From Massariosphaeria phaeospora (Eukaryota; Ascomycota; Dothideomycetes; Pleosporales), in the NCBI GenBank assembly GCA_011032825.1, contig JAADJZ010000006.1, positions 62,001 through 126,000 of the forward strand: a stretch of 64,000 bases of DNA, written 5' to 3'. Both the position numbers and the translations under genes were made by a program. Below the pieces are notes generated by a model, which had not been told where the DNA came from, did not search any database, and saw only the letters and a list, made by a program, of their open reading frames with translations. Shown here one piece after another: positions 11,091 through 57,820 of the stretch. Within the stretch, counting starts at the first letter, position 1; every line of letters starts with the position of its first letter.

Positions 11091-14000
11091 TCTTCGTGTT
11101 GTTTTCCAACAGAGTCATATGTCGTACCCGCGTGTTTTTTTCCCTTCCTCACACACCACATCGTTGTCTTGTAGTACTTGTTTCAGACATGCGCCTTTTG
11201 GACAATTGATTTTCTTCCCCACGCGCACGCCGCCATCGAGTAGAGTGGTATGGCCGATGGTTTTTCGCGCGGCAGCGCACACATGGATTTTGTATGTTTC
11301 CGGTTCGGACCTCATGAACAAGAAGACGCGGAATCATGTTTGTTTGGGGCTCTGATGCTCGCGCCGAGTCTATCATGTATCCTCTCCGTTCGTTCTTTTT
11401 TTTACAAAGTTCCTGCGCACGTGTGTCGTTTTCAGTATCGTTTTCGACATCAGACCGTTGAGGATGGGTGTTCTTGAGACTCTGTGTCCCGCGCGCATTC
11501 CGTCGTCATGGCCTTCCTAGTGAAGGGATTTTTCGCGCGGCGCTGCACACACACATGGACTTTTAGTAGTACCATTTCTGAGGTCACGAATTCGAACGCG
11601 TAGACATGTTTGTTTGGGGATTATAGTTTCACGCCCGCGAGGTCATCGTGGGTGTTGTGGAGACTTTGCTGTCGCGGCACACATAGCAACTTTATCGCAC
11701 TTGTTTTTTCCAAGCACCGAGGCACTCATGACGAAGTTGCGGTGCGCTTTTTCCCGCCTCCGTCCTCCCCATGGGTTAATTCCACAACTGTTTCATCCAC
11801 GGCTTTCCCCGCACATCTGTCCGTCGTGTTGGATTTTCATAACACCAGACATATTTGAAGATGTCTTTGTTTTCCCGTCTCCGTCCTCCCGCCATGTGAA
11901 TGGTGAGTATGTATTTCTTCCACGTCTCTCCGCGCACATGTGTCCACTGTGTTGGATTTTCATAACATAAGACATGATGGAAATGGGTTTTGTTTTTCCG
12001 TCTCCGTCCTCCAGCCATGCGGGAGTCCAACCCCAGTTTCTTGCACGGCTCTCCGCGCACATAGGTCCTTTTTGGTACAGTTTCGCAACACCAGACATGT
12101 GTTCTTCTATTTGCCATTTGGGGGTTTTCTTTTTTCAAATTTTGAGTTGCTTGTTCCTACTTCCTTCATGGACACAGTTTAGGACGCTTTTCTGTCTCCG
12201 TTCTCCCGCCATAGTGATTGGTGATCTTTTAATTCTTCCACGCTCTCTGCGCGCACATTGGTGGTTTGTTGATACTGTTTTCGCAAGCCCGGACATGGCT
12301 CCTCTTCTCGAAATTTTCGAAATTTGAGTTGCTTGTTTCTACTTCCTTCATGGACGAAGCCTGAGAGGCTTTTCGTCTCCGTTCTCCCACCATGGAAATA
12401 TAGAACTCTGGTTTCTTCCACGTCTCTCCGCGCACATAAGCCGTTTGATGTGGCCTTTTAGCAACACCAGACTTATGTCTAGAGTGGGATGGATTTTAGA
12501 GCTGCTTGTTCCTACTTCCGGCATGTATCGTGTCTTCTTTCATTCCTTGCTTCTCGCTTTCCGCGCACATAAGGATGACTCGCGGTCTTTTGTAAACACC
12601 AGACATGTATGCCAGCAGCGGCATCTCTAGAAAAGGATCGTTCCAGCAGTTTGATCGGCATAACCAGATTATTCCTACTTCCGGCATATGTTGCGTGATG
12701 TGTTCCTTTCTTTCGTTGCTTGTTTCTCGTCTCTCTGCGCACATGGGCCAATACTGTGGTCTTTTATAGACACTAGACATCAGTACTAGCAACGAATCGT
12801 TCTCCCAGTTTTTTCGGCATCACCATAAGCTAGTCCACTTTCAATCAATCATTCGTGAACCTTTTTTATTCCCGCACACAGCATATCTGCCGAGCTCTTT
12901 TATTTTCCACCCTTGGTTCTCTCGTCTCTGTCTCCACGCACATGAAATGCCGCGCGCTGCTTCTTCACAAACACCAGACAGATATCCACCACTCCTCTCT
13001 CCATTTGTTTTCACATCAATGTGCCGTTTGTGGTTTTGTTGTTCGACTTCACGCAAATAGGTTGTTTTAGCGCAGTCTGTTCTCGAGAATCCCAGACATA
13101 ACTGAGAAGAGAGATGATTTTAAACGCTCCGACACCGCGAACGTTCCATACGCTCTTGTTATTGACGTTTTGTTCTTTGCTTTTCCACAGTCCCTCCAGA
13201 CTAAGTCTTAGGGGTTCGAAAGGGTAGTCTCCGCGCACATTTGATAATGGTATTCTGATTTCCGACATCCATAACCTCATTTTTGGTTTCTATTTACCAA
13301 AGTCCGACGAACACGACATAATCTCCATCGAACATTGTTTTCGAACCAAACTGCACATGAGTCTATGGCTGTATTTTGTTCTAGCTCCCACCGTCTCACC
13401 TCCATGTCGGTTTCCTTCGCAAGTTTTCGAGCAGAGCGCATCAAAAATGCATCTTTTGCTTTTTATTACTGTTGCTTTTCTCTCGTTCGTCCGAGTTGGG
13501 GACTTTACTTAAATGATTGCGTACCACCGCGGACATAACAACTCTCCCATCACCCCTTTACGAACTTATTTTTTGAACCGGATATGTTATCTGAGCATTG
13601 ACGTTTTTAAGTTTCCAGTTGCTCCGGTTTGTACATTTTAGTGTTTTAACGTCCTTTCGACGCACATGAATGCTACATATTGGTCACTTGTAGTGATCGG
13701 GGGTGCGGAAGAAAAGGTCTTGGAAATACGGCGTGTCCGCCACCCAGTCAGTCCAAAACACCATGAACGTGGTTTCGTTTCTATTCTTGACCGCCGCCGC
13801 TTCTTCCACATGTCCTGTGGTTCGGGTGTTTTTGAACAGAGTGCACATGGTGCTGGTGCTATTGTTGTTTAGTCGCATGCGCAAGAATAACGTGAATGTG
13901 TGTGGGTCCAGGTTCCACAACGACGGCGACAAGGCTATATCGAAGAAGTATTTCCGACTCGAACATGCACGGTCATTCGTTTCGTTTTTTCGAGTTTCTC

Positions 14001-16730: not shown

Positions 16731-18251
16731 CTACAGCCCAAGCTTCAAATCCAGCTCGCCACTCACAACATGTGCGTTGATCATACTCTCGCCCTTACTA
16801 CCCCTCCTCCCTTTCACAGAGCCCTTTTTCTTCTGCACCTTCTTCATCGAAGTACCACCAAACTCCAGTTTCCCTTGCCCGATGTTTGCTTCCACGTCGC
16901 CGAACCAATCATGACCATATGCCAATTCCAGTCTCCCCTTCTCGACCGAATGCTCGCTAACGGTATTGAGAAGTGGGTTGTATTGCCGATGACTCTGCTG
17001 GAACACGTCCCCGACCCGGACATCGAGGTTGCCTAACATCGACTTTGTGTAGATCTCGTTTTTGGCGTTTTGGAGGTTGGTGCTGAAGGGTTGGATGTGA
17101 CAGGTTATGTCGCCGCTGACGCTGGAGTAGTTCGTGAATGAGCCATGTGGTGTTTGGGCACGGATATCACCCGAGACCGACGAGATGCTCAGCCGATGTG
17201 TATAATCCTGGACTGGCCACGGCAAACTGGGAGAAGACATCAAGGTCAACGGCCCCGACCCCGTTGAAACTGAGATGCTTTTGGTGTAAATCCGCTCAGT
17301 GGTATCGAGCAGGTTGGGAAAGATGTAGACTCCGATTTCGCCATCCGTATTATGCAATTCGAGATTCTCTTTTGGCAGAACGAATTCTCCGGTAAGGAGT
17401 CCGTAGGTGGAGCTCACGGAGATGTTGTGTGCGACCATGCGGTCCGGAAACGGTCGAAAAGCCATCATTCTGGTTTCGCCATACGATGTATGAGTGATGA
17501 AGTTGTTGACCTTCCAGCCCAGGCCTTGTTCAAACCAGATATCGAGGGTGTTGGTTCGAATCTCAAAAAGTTCGACTACCTGCTCGATGTTCGGCCGGAG
17601 ATGTACAACGATATCGAAGTCCGTGCAAAGCGCTGCCATCTCTTCTAAGTCGTATCCAATCGTGAGTGTCGACTTCGACTCAGCAAAAGTCAGGTCGTCC
17701 AATCTCGCTTGTTCACTGGAACGGGCAGTGACGTGGACTTCGATATCGGATCCCTGGGACGGAGCGCCTCGCTCGACGAGGATGCGGCCACGAAAGTTCT
17801 TACGTGTGGTCTGGACAGAGTCGAGAAGCTGCCACTGGTTGGGCCCCTCATTGGTGATATTAAACCCAAATTGGCGAGTCTTGAGAGTGTTTGTCATGTC
17901 GCATTGCTCAGGTTCTATCCTGGGCTGTGGCATTTCATGATGGACATGGTATGCGTGAGGCGGTATCGCTGTTTTATTCGAGTTTCCTAAAGGTCGCCGT
18001 AGTTGCAGAAAATGTCTTAAGCATAGAATGACTAGTAACACAACGCAAAATTGCCGCAACCGTAAAGATCTTCGCCATAGGTCGGTTTGCCTTAGAGGAG
18101 CTATTTTCCGACTACTGATGTTCTGCTTAATGTTAGACATAGTTTTGCCAGTGAGCGTGGTACTGACTTTTTGAAGCTCTAAGTCCTGCTTGTGCTGAAC
18201 GTGTTGCCCAAACCGGGCTTTCGTTTCTTCCATTGCTCCTGTGCGGTTCAT
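16731..18251 (-). CDS. Membrane-anchored DUF4097-like beta-repeat protein
   Basis: Single exon of 506 residues. It has a basic cytoplasmic N-terminus and one hydrophobic anchor near residues 66-85 (FCVVLLVILCLRHFL), giving type II topology. A long extracellular region built from repeating beta-strand units follows. Serial motifs such as SVSSTYGLLTGEF, SVSTGSGPLTL, SISSVSGDIRAQ, SSVSGDITCHI and HVVSGELDLKLGL match the S-x-S-G-x-(I/L) ladder of DUF4097 or adhesin-like solenoids. N-glycosylation sequons are common. The C-terminus has a Lys-rich patch (KKVQKKKGSVKGRRG). Related proteins are widespread in Pezizomycotina with no established function. The start at 18251 is the first ATG; MSNIKQN, 37 residues in, is an alternative that keeps the anchor. 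Confidence 0.8.
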   Translation of the reverse strand: MNRTGAMEETKARFGQHVQHKQDLELQKVSTTLTGKTMSNIKQNISSRKIAPLRQTDLWRRSLRLRQFCVVLLVILCLRHFLQLRRPLGNSNKTAIPPHAYHVHHEMPQPRIEPEQCDMTNTLKTRQFGFNITNEGPNQWQLLDSVQTTRKNFRGRILVERGAPSQGSDIEVHVTARSSEQARLDDLTFAESKSTLTIGYDLEEMAALCTDFDIVVHLRPNIEQVVELFEIRTNTLDIWFEQGLGWKVNNFITHTSYGETRMMAFRPFPDRMVAHNISVSSTYGLLTGEFVLPKENLELHNTDGEIGVYIFPNLLDTTERIYTKSISVSTGSGPLTLMSSPSLPWPVQDYTHRLSISSVSGDIRAQTPHGSFTNYSSVSGDITCHIQPFSTNLQNAKNEIYTKSMLGNLDVRVGDVFQQSHRQYNPLLNTVSEHSVEKGRLELAYGHDWFGDVEANIGQGKLEFGGTSMKKVQKKKGSVKGRRGSKGESMINAHVVSGELDLKLGL

Positions 18252-20804: not shown

Positions 20805-21833
20805 TCAGAGAAGGCCAGTGTTCCGCCTCTTTATCGGGGACTCCTCGTCAAGGCTAGCAACCGTTTCGTCAAGGCTCTTCCGCTTTCTAGGGTCCTGCGA
20901 GCGACTCTTCTTCGCTGGAGGGGAACCAAGATCGTAGTGGTCAAACCATGTAAACCTCTTACGATCCGGTGTGATGGAAAAAGATTTGAACATCGGAAGA
21001 ATATCAGTGGTCGGATCTTCGACAAAACCAAAATTCCCTTGGGCTTCTTTTAGTGTAATGACGAGTATGAATGGGTAGGCTTGCTGACTTTGCTGAGGCT
21101 TCTCCGGTGTCCCCAATTCCGCTGTTGCCCTCATCTCTAGAGTATTTAAGAACCTCCTATCCATCGAACCGTTCTTCTCGACCCTAAAGTCCAGCTCTTC
21201 CGTGCCACAGATCTGGACTCCAACAGGCTCGAGATCTCCCAGTCGTCTATCGTCGTCATTGTCGTTAACGTGCTCGTAATCATCATCATTCCTGACCTTC
21301 AGGAACTCTTTGACCTTTAGTCTTTGCGTCGGAGATAGCTTGTGGACGTTCTGCGCCTGGGTGTGCGCAGTATGCGCCCGAAGGGATCGCGGTCGTTTAT
21401 TTGCTTCGTCTGGGGCAATCTGCGGTTTCGGAATGGCAGTCAAAGGTTTCGCAGCAAGACATCTCTGTTTGCGAAGTAAAGGAGTGCTTCCAGAAAGATA
21501 TGTCTGCTTGGGGAGCAAATGGGACATCATAAGGGTCGGCTCGATCTCCGGTGGCTGTATATTCTTAGAGTGGCGTAACAAACAAGGTCCGGGCTCCAAA
21601 GTTCTGTTATTCAAGACATACGAAAAAGTGACTGTTAGCCGGGGCCCCGGAATTGGAACGCAATGTGTGGTCGTGCATGTGGGTGTCGCAAGCTCCACGC
21701 TGCCCGTCCAAAGTTGCCGGATTGCACAAGAACGAAAAAGAAGAAACGTGGCAAGAAGGTCCAGTCTGCAAATAGAGTTAAAAATCCTGTTTGGTGCGGT
21801 GTGGGTACGAGCATAGCTCACGGGTGTCTGCAT
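20805..21833 (-). CDS. Orphan protein, possibly nuclear
   Basis: Open frame of 342 residues, not recognised. The first 90 residues look like an untranslated leader read through. A more likely start is MMSHLLPKQ near residue 104, which would leave about 239 residues. From there the protein is Lys/Arg-rich, has an acidic DDDYEHVNDNDDD segment, then a segment with beta character (QQAYPFILVITLKEAQGNFG). It ends in a Pro/Lys/Arg tail with KKSRSQDPRKRK, a plausible bipartite nuclear signal. No homologous family is recognised. The reading frame is longer and more structured than other frames in this gene-poor stretch, hence moderate confidence. Confidence 0.45.
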   Translation of the reverse strand: MQTPVSYARTHTAPNRIFNSICRLDLLATFLLFRSCAIRQLWTGSVELATPTCTTTHCVPIPGPRLTVTFSYVLNNRTLEPGPCLLRHSKNIQPPEIEPTLMMSHLLPKQTYLSGSTPLLRKQRCLAAKPLTAIPKPQIAPDEANKRPRSLRAHTAHTQAQNVHKLSPTQRLKVKEFLKVRNDDDYEHVNDNDDDRRLGDLEPVGVQICGTEELDFRVEKNGSMDRRFLNTLEMRATAELGTPEKPQQSQQAYPFILVITLKEAQGNFGFVEDPTTDILPMFKSFSITPDRKRFTWFDHYDLGSPPAKKSRSQDPRKRKSLDETVASLDEESPIKRRNTGLL

Positions 21834-23099: not shown

Positions 23100-23106
23100 T
23101 ATATAG
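23100..23106 (+). promoter_or_regulatory. TATA box before the intron-like array
   Basis: TATATAG is followed by a CT-rich leader with almost no purine runs (23107-23300). This is the usual layout of a strong fungal promoter and start-site region. It suggests that the array downstream is transcribed on the plus strand. Confidence 0.5.
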
Positions 23107-23629
23107 ACGCCTCTCTTCCCTCTTCCTCCTTCTTTTCTTCATCCCTCCTACATCCCACTTCCATCCTCCAACATTGTGTCCTCAGCACACAGTGCCAGCA
23201 CCTTGTCCCACCACCACACTTGCTATCGCCTTTACTCTCCCATGCCTGCTATCGCTTCTTTCTCTTTACATCTTCATTTGACCTGACCTTGCTGCCGCCG
23301 CCTGGGCTCCTCAGCTCGCTCAGCTCCTCAGCCCCTCACCTCGCTCTTCTGTGTTCGGTCTGCTGACTTTTCCAGACTTCGAACTCCTTTTTCCCGATTC
23401 ATCTGGATCGTGTCGCTTCGATAGTAAGTACGACTTTCGCTCTTTCGCTCTTTCGTATTCCGTCTGTTGGTTGTTGCAAGGTTCGACTTCATTTTGATGC
23501 GCGAGATCCGACTGTGTCGTTCGCTAACTGTTTTAGCGAACCAAACTTCGTCCCTTGACCTCGACCAACCAACACACATCGATTCCCAATCACTCGACCA
23601 CTCAACACGGCATCTACTCCAACCCATTT

Positions 23630-24345
23630 ACGGTAAGTCTCGCCTAAGGTAAGAGGGCGGGTCTCCTTGCTTCAATCTCTCCCCTTTGTAGTCGTCGCCT
23701 GCACGGTAAGTTGTGTCTTGCCTCCCGAGGGTTTAGATGTAAGCTCTGTTTTTTTTGTGTAGTCGTCCGCTGTACGGTAAGCTCTACCTGGATGGGTGGG
23801 TGGGTTTCCTTGCTTCCCCCTCTTTCTTTTCCTTCTGTGTTCTCTTGCGTGTCTTTGTACTCCTTATTTCCTTCTGTAGATCACTGTACGGTAAGTCCTG
23901 CCTGAAGTGGGTGGGTGGGTTTCCTTGCTTCATCTCGCCTTCTTTCTACTCCTATCTCCTTCACGTAGGCCCTCACGGTGAGTCGTTTTCCCTTCGTTTC
24001 ATGTCGCCTTCTTTTTTCCCCGCTTTCCTTTTTGTAGGCACTCACGGTGAGTCGTATCTTTCCGTTACTTCAGCTCCTTCCCCCCCCTCTTTCTTCATGT
24101 AGGCACACGGTTAGTCGTCTCTTTTTACTTGTCGCGTCTCTTCATGTAGGCACTAGGTGAGTCGTCTCTTTTTGCTTCATGTCGCTTTCTTTACGTAGGC
24201 ACACGGTGAGTCGTCTTATTTTGCTTCACGTCGCTTTCCTTACGTAGGCACTAGGTGAGTCGTCTTTTCGTTGCTTTGTTACTTTCTTTACGTAGGCACA
24301 CGGTGAGTCGTCATTTCTTTACGTAGGCCCTCGAACGGTGAGTCG
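23630..24345 (+). repeat. Tandem array of intron-like units separated by micro-exons
   Basis: Twelve near-consensus donors (GTAAGT, GTAAGC, GTGAGT, one GTTAGT) start at 23633, 23706, 23777, 23891, 23978, 24047, 24110, 24157, 24206, 24255, 24303 and 24338. Eleven pyrimidine-TAG acceptors end at 23691, 23762, 23879, 23968, 24037, 24102, 24149, 24198, 24247, 24295 and 24326. The segments between acceptor and donor are 14, 14, 11, 9, 9, 7, 7, 7, 7, 7 and 11 nt. The five 7-nt ones alternate GCACACG and GCACTAG, so the distal part is a repeat of about 97 bp made of two sub-units. Most intervening segments are 40-103 nt; one is 24 nt. Confidence 0.85.
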
Positions 24346-24412
24346 TGTTTTTCCTTTGCTTCTCGTCGTCACTACCTAACACCGGACCATCTACAATTTA
24401 TCATCACCATCT

Positions 24413-25100
24413 ACATGCGATTTGCGGGTGGGTTACCATTTATCATCACGATTTATCTGCAATTTGCGGGTGGGCGGGCGGTCACCATTTATTATCACCA
24501 TCTATCTGTAGTCATCTCTTGCCACGTCCGTAGTCTTCTCTTTCCTTTTTCTCTCTTTGCTATTTACTTCGCGATTTGCGGGCGGGCGGGCGGTTGCCGT
24601 TTATTATCTCATCTATCTGTAGTCATCTCTTGCCACGTCCGTAGTCTTTTCTTTCTGTTTTCTCTCTTTGCCATCTACTTTCGCGATTTGCGGGCGGGCG
24701 GGCGGGTACTATTTACCATCTCATCTATCTGTAGTTATCTCTTCAGCCATGTCCGTAGTCCTCTCCTTCTTTCTCTTTGCCATTTACTTTCGCGATTTGC
24801 GGGCGGGCGGGCGGGCGGGCACCATTTATCATCTGCCATTTACCATGTAGACATCTCTTCTGCCATTTACATTCGCGATTTGCGGGCGGGCGGGCGGGCG
24901 TCATTTATCACGTAGTCATCTCTTCTGCCATTTATCTGTAGTGATTTACTTGCGATTTGCGGACGGGCGGGCGGTCACCATCTATCATGTAGTCATCTCT
25001 TCTGCCATTTATCTGTCGTGATCTACTTGCGATTTGCGGGTGGGCGGGCGGCTACCATTTATCACCATATCTCACATATGCGGGAGGGCGGGTGGTGGTC
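24413..25100 (+). repeat. GGGC-rich tandem repeat with G-quadruplex potential
   Basis: Nine copies of gatttgcggg followed by runs of GGGC lie near 24417, 24460, 24571, 24681, 24791, 24874, 24951, 25028 and 25077. The step is about 110 nt in the middle and about 77 nt distally. The linkers are conserved (accatttatcatc, ctgtagtcatctcttgcc, acgtccgtagtc). Copies near 24681, 24791 and 24874 have four or five GGG tracts separated by single C residues, a canonical quadruplex pattern on the plus strand. Confidence 0.85.
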
Positions 25101-25927
25101 ATTTACTTCGCTATCTGCGTACAGTAAGGTGAGTCAGTTCCGTATTCCAACTTCCTTCACCTCGTCTCAGCACCAACTCCTCATCTTTCATCATATCAGG
25201 TAGGTGGGTGGTGGTCCTTGTTCGCTTCTGCCTTTCATTCTGCCAGGTGCTATTTCGTTGCTGGGCGAGGGTGCTGGCGGTGGCCATGCGCGGGATTTGG
25301 TTCTGGGATTGGTATACTGGAGGGTGGAGGTGTGCTTGGTATGGGAAGCATGGGGTGGACGGATGGCTGGTGGTGGAGTTGCGGAGCTGTTGCTGGTGCA
25401 GTGCGGAGGAGAGGATTGGGTAGGTGCTGGGGCACATACGAGGTAGCATAGATATCGATTAGCTTGAATATACTCTTAACTAGATCTCTGAATGCTGCTG
25501 TGCCATGCTCTGACTACAGGAATATTGCGCACGCTCCCAGAATGGCTCGAATCTGGCCACGCTCCGAGTAGAACACACAGTTCAAAGGCCCCGCAATGGA
25601 GCTTACTCATCTCACGATGCGAATATGCGCAAACTCAGCAGCCCCATGACGTTGGCCGGGCACATGGTGTCTGACAGTCTGCGCGTGGTTGTTGATGTCG
25701 TGGTCGTGGTCGTGTTGCGGGCGGGCGGGGTGGCCTGGGCGCCCGTTGCCCAAGCAAACACGACAGGGATTGGTTTGTTTACCTTCCGTGTACCTTCTGC
25801 GCTCGTACCACACTGCTTCTCCATCCATCCAACCCAACATCGCACAAACAATCACTCCACCCTCCGCATCACCGCCGACCTCGTCAACACCGCCAAGTTG
25901 GCGAAACTCACAGACTCGCCGTTCGGC

Positions 25928-28088
25928 ATGGATCCGCCATCGCCGTCGAAATTCCCCATGTCGCCCGGCATGCCCATCTTCTCCGTCAGCCCAGAGCGCG
26001 TGGCGGGGACGAAACCGCTGTACGGCCTGCCCGCACCGCCTTCGCCCTCGCTCCCAGACCTGCGCACCTCGCCGCTACGATCGCACCGACGGAACGACTC
26101 GGACGTCTCCGTGCATGGCCTTGCTGCTATGTTCGAGAACCTGGAGGTTAAGGACTTCAAGGAAGCTCAGGCCAAGTTCCAACAAGCCATGCATGCCTTG
26201 CAAAGAGAGAAGTCAAAGCACGCAAGCGAACTCCGAAAGCTGGAGAAGGATTGCGCGCTCAGCGTCGCTCGCCGCGACATCCGCATCGAGGAGCTCTCCA
26301 ACGAGCTGGACAAGGCGAAGACGTCTCCGGTGGGGTTTATATCCAAAGAAGACCACGACAAAGAGCGCCAGACGAGCCGCGAGGATGCCAAGAAATGGAG
26401 AGAGACAATCGAGAAGGTCAAGGAGGAAAAATGGCAGACCGACAGTAAACTTGTAAGCTGTCGGCCGTTTATACCACACTAGTGAGAGATGCTAATAGGC
26501 TCAGGCGGACGCCATTCGGAAGATCCATCAGTTTGAAGCCAAATACAAGAAGCACAAGGCGATCGGCGAAGAGAAAACCAAGGACTTGGCGGCGGCGGAG
26601 AAGTCATTGGTGGAGTTGCAAAGTAATGCTCATAACCACACACGCACCGTCCAGCTTGTCAAGTCAGACTTGAATTTTCAGACCAATCAAGCTATCATGT
26701 ACAAAGACAAGGCGTGGGCTCTAGAAAGTCAACTTAGGAGCGTACAGACCCAAGTCGACGAGGAGATACAGACGCTGAAAGACAAGCTCCAAGTCACTGA
26801 AGGAGAGCGCGATGCGTTGAAAACAAGCCTACAAGTGGAGGAAGTTTTACGCATCGCTGCTGAAGGACATATTGCTCTTCCTGCTGACACGACGGAAGAG
26901 TCCGAGGAGTTCGGACATCCGATCCGCTCTCCACGGAAACAACGCATGGCCAACAATCATGACGACGACAAGGAGAATGTAGCGCCGAAAAGGGCTGTTG
27001 TCGACAACATGTTCCTCCAGCAAGAACTAACGGTAGAGAAACGTCTGCGCGAACGTGCGCAAGAACAGATCGAGTTCATGAAGATGGAGTGTCAATTTCA
27101 ATGCTGCTCCTGTCGGGTTGCAGATTTTAAAGGAGTCAGATACGTTCATGACAATAGATACGCTGCCGAGATCGAACGTATCAAGGCATCTCTGCCTGCG
27201 ATGACGCCTCCGCCTAGTGATCATGGCGGTGATCCGATGGAGGGGTTGACTATCAAGGAAGAGGCGTTTGACGACGAGCGACCATTTACTCCTCCACCAG
27301 AAGAGACACCACAACAGGAGCTCATATTGGAAGATACTGACTGTTCCCGTGAGGACACTGTGGCACTGAAATCTCAAGTTAGCACGTCGCCGGAACCTAT
27401 CGTGGCGTTCTCTCCCACTACAGGCACATTCCGCTCTGTGCCATCGCCCGTCAAGGCTTCTACATCGATCCATATGGCTACTCCGGCCAAGCCATCTCCC
27501 CTAGGTCTCGGTGCTAATACTGACACCACTACCGAGTCACCTCCATGGACCCCTGATGCTACCAGCACTATGATACAAACTGAAAACGAGCCTGTTCTGC
27601 CCTCGCTTCGAGAGACAATACCTGGTCCTGAGGTGAAGATGGCTCCCCTATCTGTGGAGAAATCCAGTAGCGTCATCATCCACGAAGATGCTATGATGGA
27701 CAGCGACGAGGAAGATGAGCTACAAACGCCCAAGCACGACCCTCTAGGTTCAGCGAGGCCCAACCAATTCTTGACTCGCACCATCACCACCACCACTACA
27801 ATTCCGATTCACTTCTCGCCCATGACACCGGCCACTAAACCAGGCAATCGAATGTTTACACCTTCTACTGTAGCCCATGCGCCAGAGAATGCACGAACAC
27901 CGGTTCTCGGAGAACTCTGTCTCAACAAAGTTCCGATCGATCGAGAGGCGGCGCTTGAGGCAATCCGACAGCGACGCGGCAGAGCTAGGAGCATGGCTGC
28001 TGGGCATGGGACGCCGAGGAAGCAGATGATGGATGGAGTGGGTGAACGAAGGGATATCAGCGCACCTGTGCCGAGGGTACGACGATGA
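25928..28088 (+). CDS. snaD: Coiled-coil spindle-pole-body protein, SnaD-like
   Basis: Two exons (25928-26452 and 26505-28088) are joined in phase 0 over a 52-nt intron (gtaagc, branch gctaat, ctcag), giving 702 residues. The start MDPPSPSKFPMSPGMPIFSV is chosen because the segment is conserved-looking. The in-frame sequence upstream is leader-like (poly-Val, Thr/His-rich). A coiled coil runs over about residues 67-135 and again over 176-320, with heptads rich in Lys/Glu. A small Cys-containing patch (FQCCSCRV) follows near 365, then a Pro/Ser/Thr-rich disordered tail with several T/S-P sites, as in cell-cycle kinase targets. The SnaD assignment (Aspergillus suppressor-of-nud family, at spindle pole bodies) rests on remembered similarity of the N-terminus and architecture. 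Confidence 0.75.
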
Positions 28089-57173: not shown

Positions 57174-57820
57174 TCAAAATTCCATAAGCATTCCAGTGAT
57201 AGCTGAAAACATGCCTATCGAGACCTACAACGTGTTAGCTTTCCGCAACCAAGCGGCTAGGCATGTCATACCGGCAATCCGAAAGTGAACGACATCAAGA
57301 AGGCGACCGGGTCAACCGTGACAATCAGGTAACATCCACAAAATCCCAGGGCATACAGCGCCGCAACAAGCGCGCCTCCACGCCACACGTTCCCAAGCTG
57401 ATACGCCCAGATCTTGACAGCAACAGCGAGACGGATCAGTCCCAACTGCCAATTCCTCGTCAGTTTTGATGCTGAAACTTTGCGTATGCGTTGGAGAGAA
57501 CTTACCGGTATGAAGAAGAGCCAGAAGAATATCAGCGGAGATTTGTCTTCGGCTTCTTCGACGATCTTGTAGGCCGTGGTGCAGAGTACGAGATACACGA
57601 GGACAGCGATCGCGCTGCACATCTCGACACGTGTGGCGGTGAGCATTTCGGTGAGCATGTCGGTGAGCATGTCGGTGAGCGATCCGTAGTTGCGCCTGTA
57701 GTAGTCTTGAAAGGTCGTGGGCCGCGGGGTCTTGACCTCGGTGTCGACGTCGTCCACGAGGGTGGATTTGCAGTTTGCGCAGTAGGTTTCTGCCAATGTG
57801 GTCGGAGGTGTTATGGTCAT
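57174..57820 (-). CDS. Small multi-pass membrane protein with CxxC N-terminus (single-unit copy)
   Basis: Exons 57820-57506, 57445-57272 and 57224-57174 join in phase 0 (introns 60 and 47 nt) to give 179 residues. The N-terminus MTITPPTTLAETYCANCKST has a CxxC pair (14, 17). It is followed by a repeat-encoded SLTDMLTDMLTEMLT stretch. Four hydrophobic segments follow: AIAVLVYLVLCTTAYK, IFFWLFFIP, LVAALYALGFCGCYLIV and the exon-3 end. Exon 2 starts LGLIRLAVAV and contains NVWRGG...VDP, both shared with the neighbouring two-unit gene. The first intron donor (CCG|gtaagt) and the second (CCG|gtatgacat) are at the same places as in the second unit of that gene, so the copies share ancestry. Function unknown. 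Confidence 0.7.

Follow-up and report, generated by a model that had tools for sequence, protein, structure and literature searches.

Splice-junction-like modules in a tandem array at a single locus of Massariosphaeria phaeospora

The genome of Massariosphaeria phaeospora, which we take to be a pleosporalean Dothideomycete, comprises 42.1 Mb in 51 contigs. A stretch of 64 kb from it (the window, to which all coordinates refer unless a contig is named) was analyzed. On the forward strand of this window a TATA-like box (TATATA, 23100–23105), a putative promoter element, is followed on its 3′ side by a pyrimidine-rich stretch which presumably includes the start of transcription. Further 3′ lies a canonical-looking intron of 113 nt (23424–23536) with a GTAAGT donor, a CTAAC branch site (branch A at 23527) and a TTTAG acceptor, the splicing of which is predicted from these signals. 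The presumed exon 5′ of this intron contains one ATG (23242). The CA-rich exon on its other side (23537–23632) contains none, and its 3′ edge, ending in TTTACG at the first donor, is the start of an array of splice-site-like modules on the forward strand (array 1, 23633–24343). Even if this exon is joined with all eleven short spacers of the array, the resulting sequence is free of ATGs. The TATA-like site, the canonical intron and the ATG-free exon 5′ of the array suggest that array 1 is probably located in a transcript leader or in a non-coding transcript. Transcription through the array, any use of its sites and any effect on a gene are inferred.

Array 1 is composed of 12 donors and 11 acceptors, which delimit eleven intron-like pieces, each followed by a micro-exon-like spacer of 7–14 nt. 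With every unit counted from the first position of a donor to the G of an acceptor, these are, from 5′ to 3′, unit 1 (23633–23691, 59 nt; spacer 23692–23705, 14 nt), unit 2 (23706–23762, 57 nt; spacer 23763–23776, 14 nt), unit 3 (23777–23879, 103 nt; spacer 23880–23890, 11 nt), unit 4 (23891–23968, 78 nt; spacer 23969–23977, 9 nt), unit 5 (23978–24037, 60 nt; spacer 24038–24046, 9 nt), unit 6 (24047–24102, 56 nt; spacer 24103–24109, 7 nt), unit 7 (24110–24149, 40 nt; spacer 24150–24156, 7 nt), unit 8 (24157–24198, 42 nt; spacer 24199–24205, 7 nt), unit 9 (24206–24247, 42 nt; spacer 24248–24254, 7 nt), unit 10 (24255–24295, 41 nt; spacer 24296–24302, 7 nt) and unit 11 (24303–24326, only 24 nt; spacer 24327–24337, 11 nt). 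The twelfth donor starts at 24338. GTGAGT is the most frequent donor (seven of twelve), followed by GTAAGT (three), GTAAGC (one) and GTTAGT (one, in unit 7), and GTAG is present at all eleven acceptors. At the level of splice sites the units therefore resemble ordinary U2 introns of fungi, with GTNAGY at 12 of 12 donors and TAG at 11 of 11 acceptors. Unit 2 includes an extra TTTAG-AT-GTAAGC module (acceptor 23736, 2 nt, donor 23739), which ends at 23744. The spacers of units 6, 8 and 10 read GCACACG and those of units 7 and 9 GCACTAG, whereby the latter two offer the option of a zero-length AG/GTGAGT junction.

The original prediction of eleven acceptor-(7–14 nt)-donor modules could be confirmed, as the pattern YAG-N(5–16)-GTDAGY occurs 11 times in 23600–24360, whereas 2000 dinucleotide shuffles of this region contained it 0.53 times on average and never more than 5 times. 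Neither the reverse strand nor the reversed sequence of this region contains the pattern. In 264 kb of the genome (both strands, window included) 197 modules were found in all, and no cluster of more than four modules per 761 nt was observed there outside array 1. All five genome-wide matches to the core pattern of the array (at most two mismatches) are located inside array 1. Patterns led by GTGAGT and GTAAGT had 46 and 81 matches in the genome (three and one of them in the array), numbers which are not above chance because the reversed-pattern controls yielded 82 and 73 matches, respectively. Among the matches listed, chains outside the array consisted of at most two such matches, with both patterns overlooking units with GTTAGT or with longer pieces. 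Introner-like elements are introns multiplied over many genes, and array 1 differs from them by its occurrence at one locus: near-identical introns at many loci were not found, as a whole-genome search with array 1 returned, among the best candidates that were scored, only array 1 itself. Such elements are described as multiplied intron-like sequences known from Dothideomycetes in the excerpt available from PMC4457414. A separate observation concerns dispersed, near-identical repeats with paired GTAAGT..TAG..GTAAGT at G000 C1:275681–275779 and, in similar form, on C2, C18 and C50, which are probably copies of a transposable element.

Downstream of the array, a gene on the forward strand (25928–28088) encodes a protein of 702 amino acids, the spliced translation of which is identical to a public M. 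phaeospora protein (hypothetical protein BDV95DRAFT_488295). Its two coding exons (25928–26452 and 26505–28085 plus stop) have 5-mer coding scores of +0.30 and +0.18 bits per codon, and its intron (26453–26504, 52 nt) contains GCTAAT. This gene could be the user of an array 1 leader. There are nine ATGs in 25492–25695, and the CA-rich stretch directly 5′ of 25928 looks, by its sequence, like a separate leader; both suggest that the array may sit in an independent, possibly non-coding transcript. The antisense frame at 25111–25458 (115 aa) had no homologue in the search and a coding score of −0.08 per codon. On the other side of the array, the upstream neighbor is uncertain, as the minus-strand frame at 20805–21833 (342 aa) had itself as sole match in a protein search; whether it is an orphan gene or a misread frame is likewise uncertain. 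A further minus-strand frame (16731–18251, 506 aa) matches DUF4097 (Toastrack) with 23.5 bits, the Pfam cut-off being 22.9 bits. No RNA family reached its gathering threshold in the whole 64-kb window, and two weak matches (E 0.13 and 4.6) lie outside both array 1 and the adjoining array 2 described below. A tRNA scan yielded no hits, nor did a scan for bacterial promoters and terminators, which is not meant for a fungus.

To follow the changes among the units, gap-free blocks around the eleven spacers were used for a neighbor-joining tree, on which the inferred changes were counted per column. The six splice-critical positions (acceptor A and G; donor +1, +2, +4 and +5) exhibited no change at all, compared to a mean of 1.5 in the 22 nearest other columns and of 2.55 in all 40 others. 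Donor and acceptor are thus indeed the best-kept parts of the units, as had been claimed, and the even change across the unit which a neutral minisatellite should exhibit was not observed, with the reservation that the units had been recognized by these very sites. In a permutation, random sets of six columns were free of change with a frequency of 2e-5 (all columns) or 4.7e-4 (22 nearest), and a simpler column count for the invariance of the splice positions gave P = 3.6e-4; all of these values are rough, because of the ascertainment just mentioned, because the invariant columns had already been noticed before the test, because tract borders were picked by eye and because the units arose by copying from one another. 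Donor position +3, at which the splice consensus tolerates variation, is occupied by A, G or T. Moreover, the pyrimidine tract from −12 to −6 (acceptor G = 0) contains no purine in any of its 77 cells despite 13 inferred changes, and none in the 42 cells of the first six units, compared to 25 purines in the 88 cells from −20 to −13. Four of the 40 columns that are not splice-critical are also invariant, and for the invariance of acceptor −3 (G) and donor +9 (T) no splicing reason is known to us. Taken with the caveat of ascertainment, the splice-like constraint in the sequence of array 1 looks real.

In principle, the array could also be an element acting at the level of DNA, such as a pyrimidine-rich promoter repeat or a cluster of transcription factor sites, with its splice-like look being coincidental. 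Its position upstream of the 702-aa gene, the strong strand asymmetry of its composition and a 20-nt core that the young units have in common would fit with this idea. Nevertheless, it appears very improbable, as mainly splice-type positions survive across old and young units, spacers range from 7 to 14 nt and a change from GTAAGT to GTGAGT would leave a donor intact, though not a fixed binding site.

Judged by their sequence, the units of array 1 are tandem duplicates. Tandem Repeats Finder (TRF) assigned to 24089–24312 periods of 49 nt (score 254) and 96 nt (score 293). The higher score of the 96-nt period fits with the distal alternation of GCACACG and GCACTAG, which had been pointed out before and is real in units 6–10; it is explained by the duplication of a two-unit repeat. 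Gaps ignored, units 8 and 10 are 95% and units 2 and 4 are 64% identical, and units become shorter toward the 3′ end.

This ordinary tandem structure, with its two periods and its shortest units at the 3′ end, leads to the main rival explanation, in which a minisatellite grew by chance from a real exon–intron junction, in a leader intron or between genes, and is now a neutral relic consisting of young or homogenized copies with unused sites. The lack of CTRAY branch sites in the units, the piece of only 24 nt, the ten GTAG sites and missing donors of array 2 and the two invariant columns that splicing does not account for would all be in line with it. On the other hand, the 5′ units are strongly diverged elsewhere and have still retained the splice-critical positions and the pyrimidine tract, for which P is about 5e-4 if columns are exchangeable, a value subject to the ascertainment bias. 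A decayed unit was suspected within the 103-nt piece (unit 3, with both sites lost), but its best block (P = 0.009) was not significant as the best of eleven (P = 0.14), and this candidate was dropped. We consider the neutral relic a serious contender, though with distinctly less than an even chance of being correct. The doubt expressed in the original prediction, that a neutral minisatellite would not be expected to keep splice signals preferentially, holds insofar as a plain minisatellite does not account for the array in the most economical way, since the signals are the best-kept parts, are found on the forward strand only and follow a plausible leader intron and exon. In a relic, young and homogenized copies would imitate such constraint.

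The similarity to ordinary introns ends at the branch site. According to an excerpt of PMC5677156, 91% of 2022 Fusarium introns carry CTRAY, with TTRAY and CTHAH being rare, and their lengths range from 42 to 529 nt. None of the eleven units contains CTRAY or TTRAY, and CTHAH was found in the interior of two of them (units 3 and 9), so that the branch site of an ordinary U2 fungal intron is not what the units exhibit. The near-perfect splice consensus that had been predicted consequently holds true for donor, acceptor and pyrimidine tract, but not for the branch site. For comparison, an intron set was derived from the M. phaeospora genome without the use of branch sites; in this noisy set, CTRAY was present in 25 of 41 introns with a score above 20 (shortest 47 nt) and in 40 of 118 with a score above 12 (shortest 30 nt), with 13 candidates from an earlier round of self-training being set aside. 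Sequence of this kind may well lack CTRAY by chance (shuffle mean 1.2, P = 0.30), and as the units are mutual copies their eleven misses are not independent. This suggests that no standard branch site has been kept or selected in the units, and not that branch sites have been removed. With regard to length, eight of the eleven pieces have at least 42 nt, the Fusarium minimum, and the others 40, 41 and 24 nt, so that some pieces are below the usual size of a fungal intron.

A true multi-micro-exon RNA or a recursive ladder, as originally proposed, would require that most or all of the eleven pieces are removed serially via degenerate branch sites, with every acceptor having such a site on its 5′ side. 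Both splice sites are present in every recognized unit, and a YTNAY match lies inside nine of the eleven, partly in the TTGCTTCA element that forms the middle of the units. It is also in favor of such a ladder that the best six-letter CTRAY-type motif occurs in only ~43–51% of the introns of four filamentous ascomycetes (Aspergillus fumigatus, A. nidulans, G. zeae and N. crassa), as stated in an excerpt of PMC2483917. However, the array contains 16 YTNAY compared to 11.3 in shuffles, which is a small excess, the A of TTGCTTCA is not kept in all copies, and in units 6, 10 and 11 the A of the sole YTNAY is only 5 nt away from the 3′ end of the piece. Together with the complete lack of CTRAY and TTRAY and the three pieces below 42 nt, this makes serial removal of the pieces unlikely. 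A working ladder of 7–14 nt micro-exons, serial or combinatorial, with recognition by pyrimidine tract, TAG and GTRAGT, is equally doubtful; it would involve very short introns in which standard branch sites are missing and a copy number that shifts by tandem duplication. Zero-length YAG/GTRAGT junctions, which would suit a ladder, were found at just two places in 23500–25300 (24154 and 24252), and a third zero-length junction inside array 1, at 23646, reads AAG/GTAAGA. In the form in which they had been proposed, the multi-micro-exon RNA and the recursive ladder were thus not upheld.

The ratchet points of recursive splicing, as far as excerpted in PMC8605326, are juxtaposed acceptors and donors in long Drosophila introns. 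Two of the eleven junctions in array 1, at which an acceptor can be directly followed by a donor, are similar to them. In contrast, the region spans about 0.7 kb and its spacers otherwise have 7–14 nt.

At the distal end of the array, the terminal donor (24338) is followed by the first CTRAY since the array start (CTAAC, 24376–24380) and by a TAG at 24509–24511, which may together constitute an intron (24338–24511). The distance from the branch A to this first AG is 132 nt, with no AG in between compared to 6.1 expected from composition, in a stretch that was chosen after being seen. This distance seems long for a fungus. The predicted RNA folds of array 1 (z = −0.64) and of 24338–24511 (z = −0.05) are not unusual.

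The end of this putative intron overlaps with array 2 (24460–25070, forward strand), the repeats of which have lengths of 112 nt and 77 nt and include runs of GGGC. GTAG occurs at ten sites in this array, and a strict G-quadruplex pattern is matched three times. No GTNAGN donor occurs between 24344 and 25120, and a genome search with array 2 had array 2 itself as sole match. In comparisons with array 1, six of 100 shuffles were as good as the whole arrays and one of 200 was as good as the block of unit 1; the other ten blocks of array 1 gave no signal. The evidence for a kinship of array 2 with unit 1 is therefore no more than suggestive. A coding repeat was rejected, as 112 and 77 are not multiples of three and coding scores were negative (−0.27 to −0.28 bits per codon for three open frames in or near the arrays).

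Tentatively, and with slightly less than an even chance, we favor the explanation that a splice-junction cassette was duplicated in tandem and that its copies now provide competing splice sites within one composite leader intron. The cassette would be composed of a pyrimidine tract, a TAG acceptor, a small exon remnant of 7–14 nt and a GTRAGT donor, and it would have been multiplied by one and two units per step within the leader of a forward-strand transcript. As the duplicated segment lacked a standard branch site, the pieces between the copies would probably not be removed as eleven ordinary introns. Instead, the copies, which would hold both splice sites under splice-type constraint, might compete as donors and acceptors inside the composite intron, with the strong branch site CTAAC (24376) lying beyond the last donor. 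Micro-exons would then be included rarely at most, and splicing of the leader is predicted to be heterogeneous or slow. What this explanation is built on, namely the anatomy of the array, its single locus, the pattern of constraint and the missing CTRAY, was observed directly. The lack of modules on the opposite strand, the canonical-looking intron and ATG-free exon 5′ of the array, and the CTRAY beyond the last donor with its AG-free stretch also speak in its favor. Of the three ideas in the original prediction, an expanded intron acting as a splicing sink is the one that fits best. Against a duplicated cassette it can be argued that competition among donors alone for the distal branch site would give the acceptors no cause for invariance. 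The 132 nt between branch site and AG and the ATG at 23242 in the first presumed exon also speak against it.

In the open-licence PMC literature, no fungal splice-site array of such a kind was described among the matches listed. The nearest known kinds are intron gain by tandem duplication, stwintrons, introner-like elements and recursive splicing, none of which array 1 equals in all tested features. Where introns are gained by tandem duplication, donor and acceptor are both part of the repeats and an intron may span several copies, and array 1 likewise consists of tandem repeats with splice sites. As far as excerpts of PMC3629103 and PMC4974935 show, these gains occurred in coding exons, with repeats that contain AGGC or AGGT or with copies of a parental intron and exon. 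The repeat of array 1, in contrast, runs from pyrimidine tract and acceptor over a short exon to a donor, is present in eleven copies in a presumed leader and has no CTRAY. Stwintrons (spliceosomal twin introns) of ascomycetes are complex introns with several donors and acceptors, consisting, in the excerpts available, of two nested introns of which the inner one splits a splice element of the outer one (PMC12403724, PMC8469720). The modules of array 1 differ from this arrangement by following each other at distances of 7–14 nt without CTRAY, and an internal intron splitting an outer donor, branch site or acceptor was not recognized, as the units have no standard branch site. Nested use is conceivable at 23649 or at 23736–23739.

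If any of its sites are used, array 1 would constitute a naturally occurring copy-number series of one splice-junction cassette. It would then reveal how a fungal spliceosome selects from about a dozen donors and acceptors that resemble each other when a single branch site is good, and how splice sites can be multiplied by tandem duplication while no complete introns are formed. If the sites are unused, the array would be a satellite that convincingly mimics an array of exons, and thereby a warning for gene predictors. Other tandem repeats were noted elsewhere in the window, namely a 123-nt repeat with 2.6 copies (11749–12062) and a 12-nt CGGTGAGCATGT repeat with 3.7 copies (57637–57680), which is located within a minus-strand frame (57266–57820).
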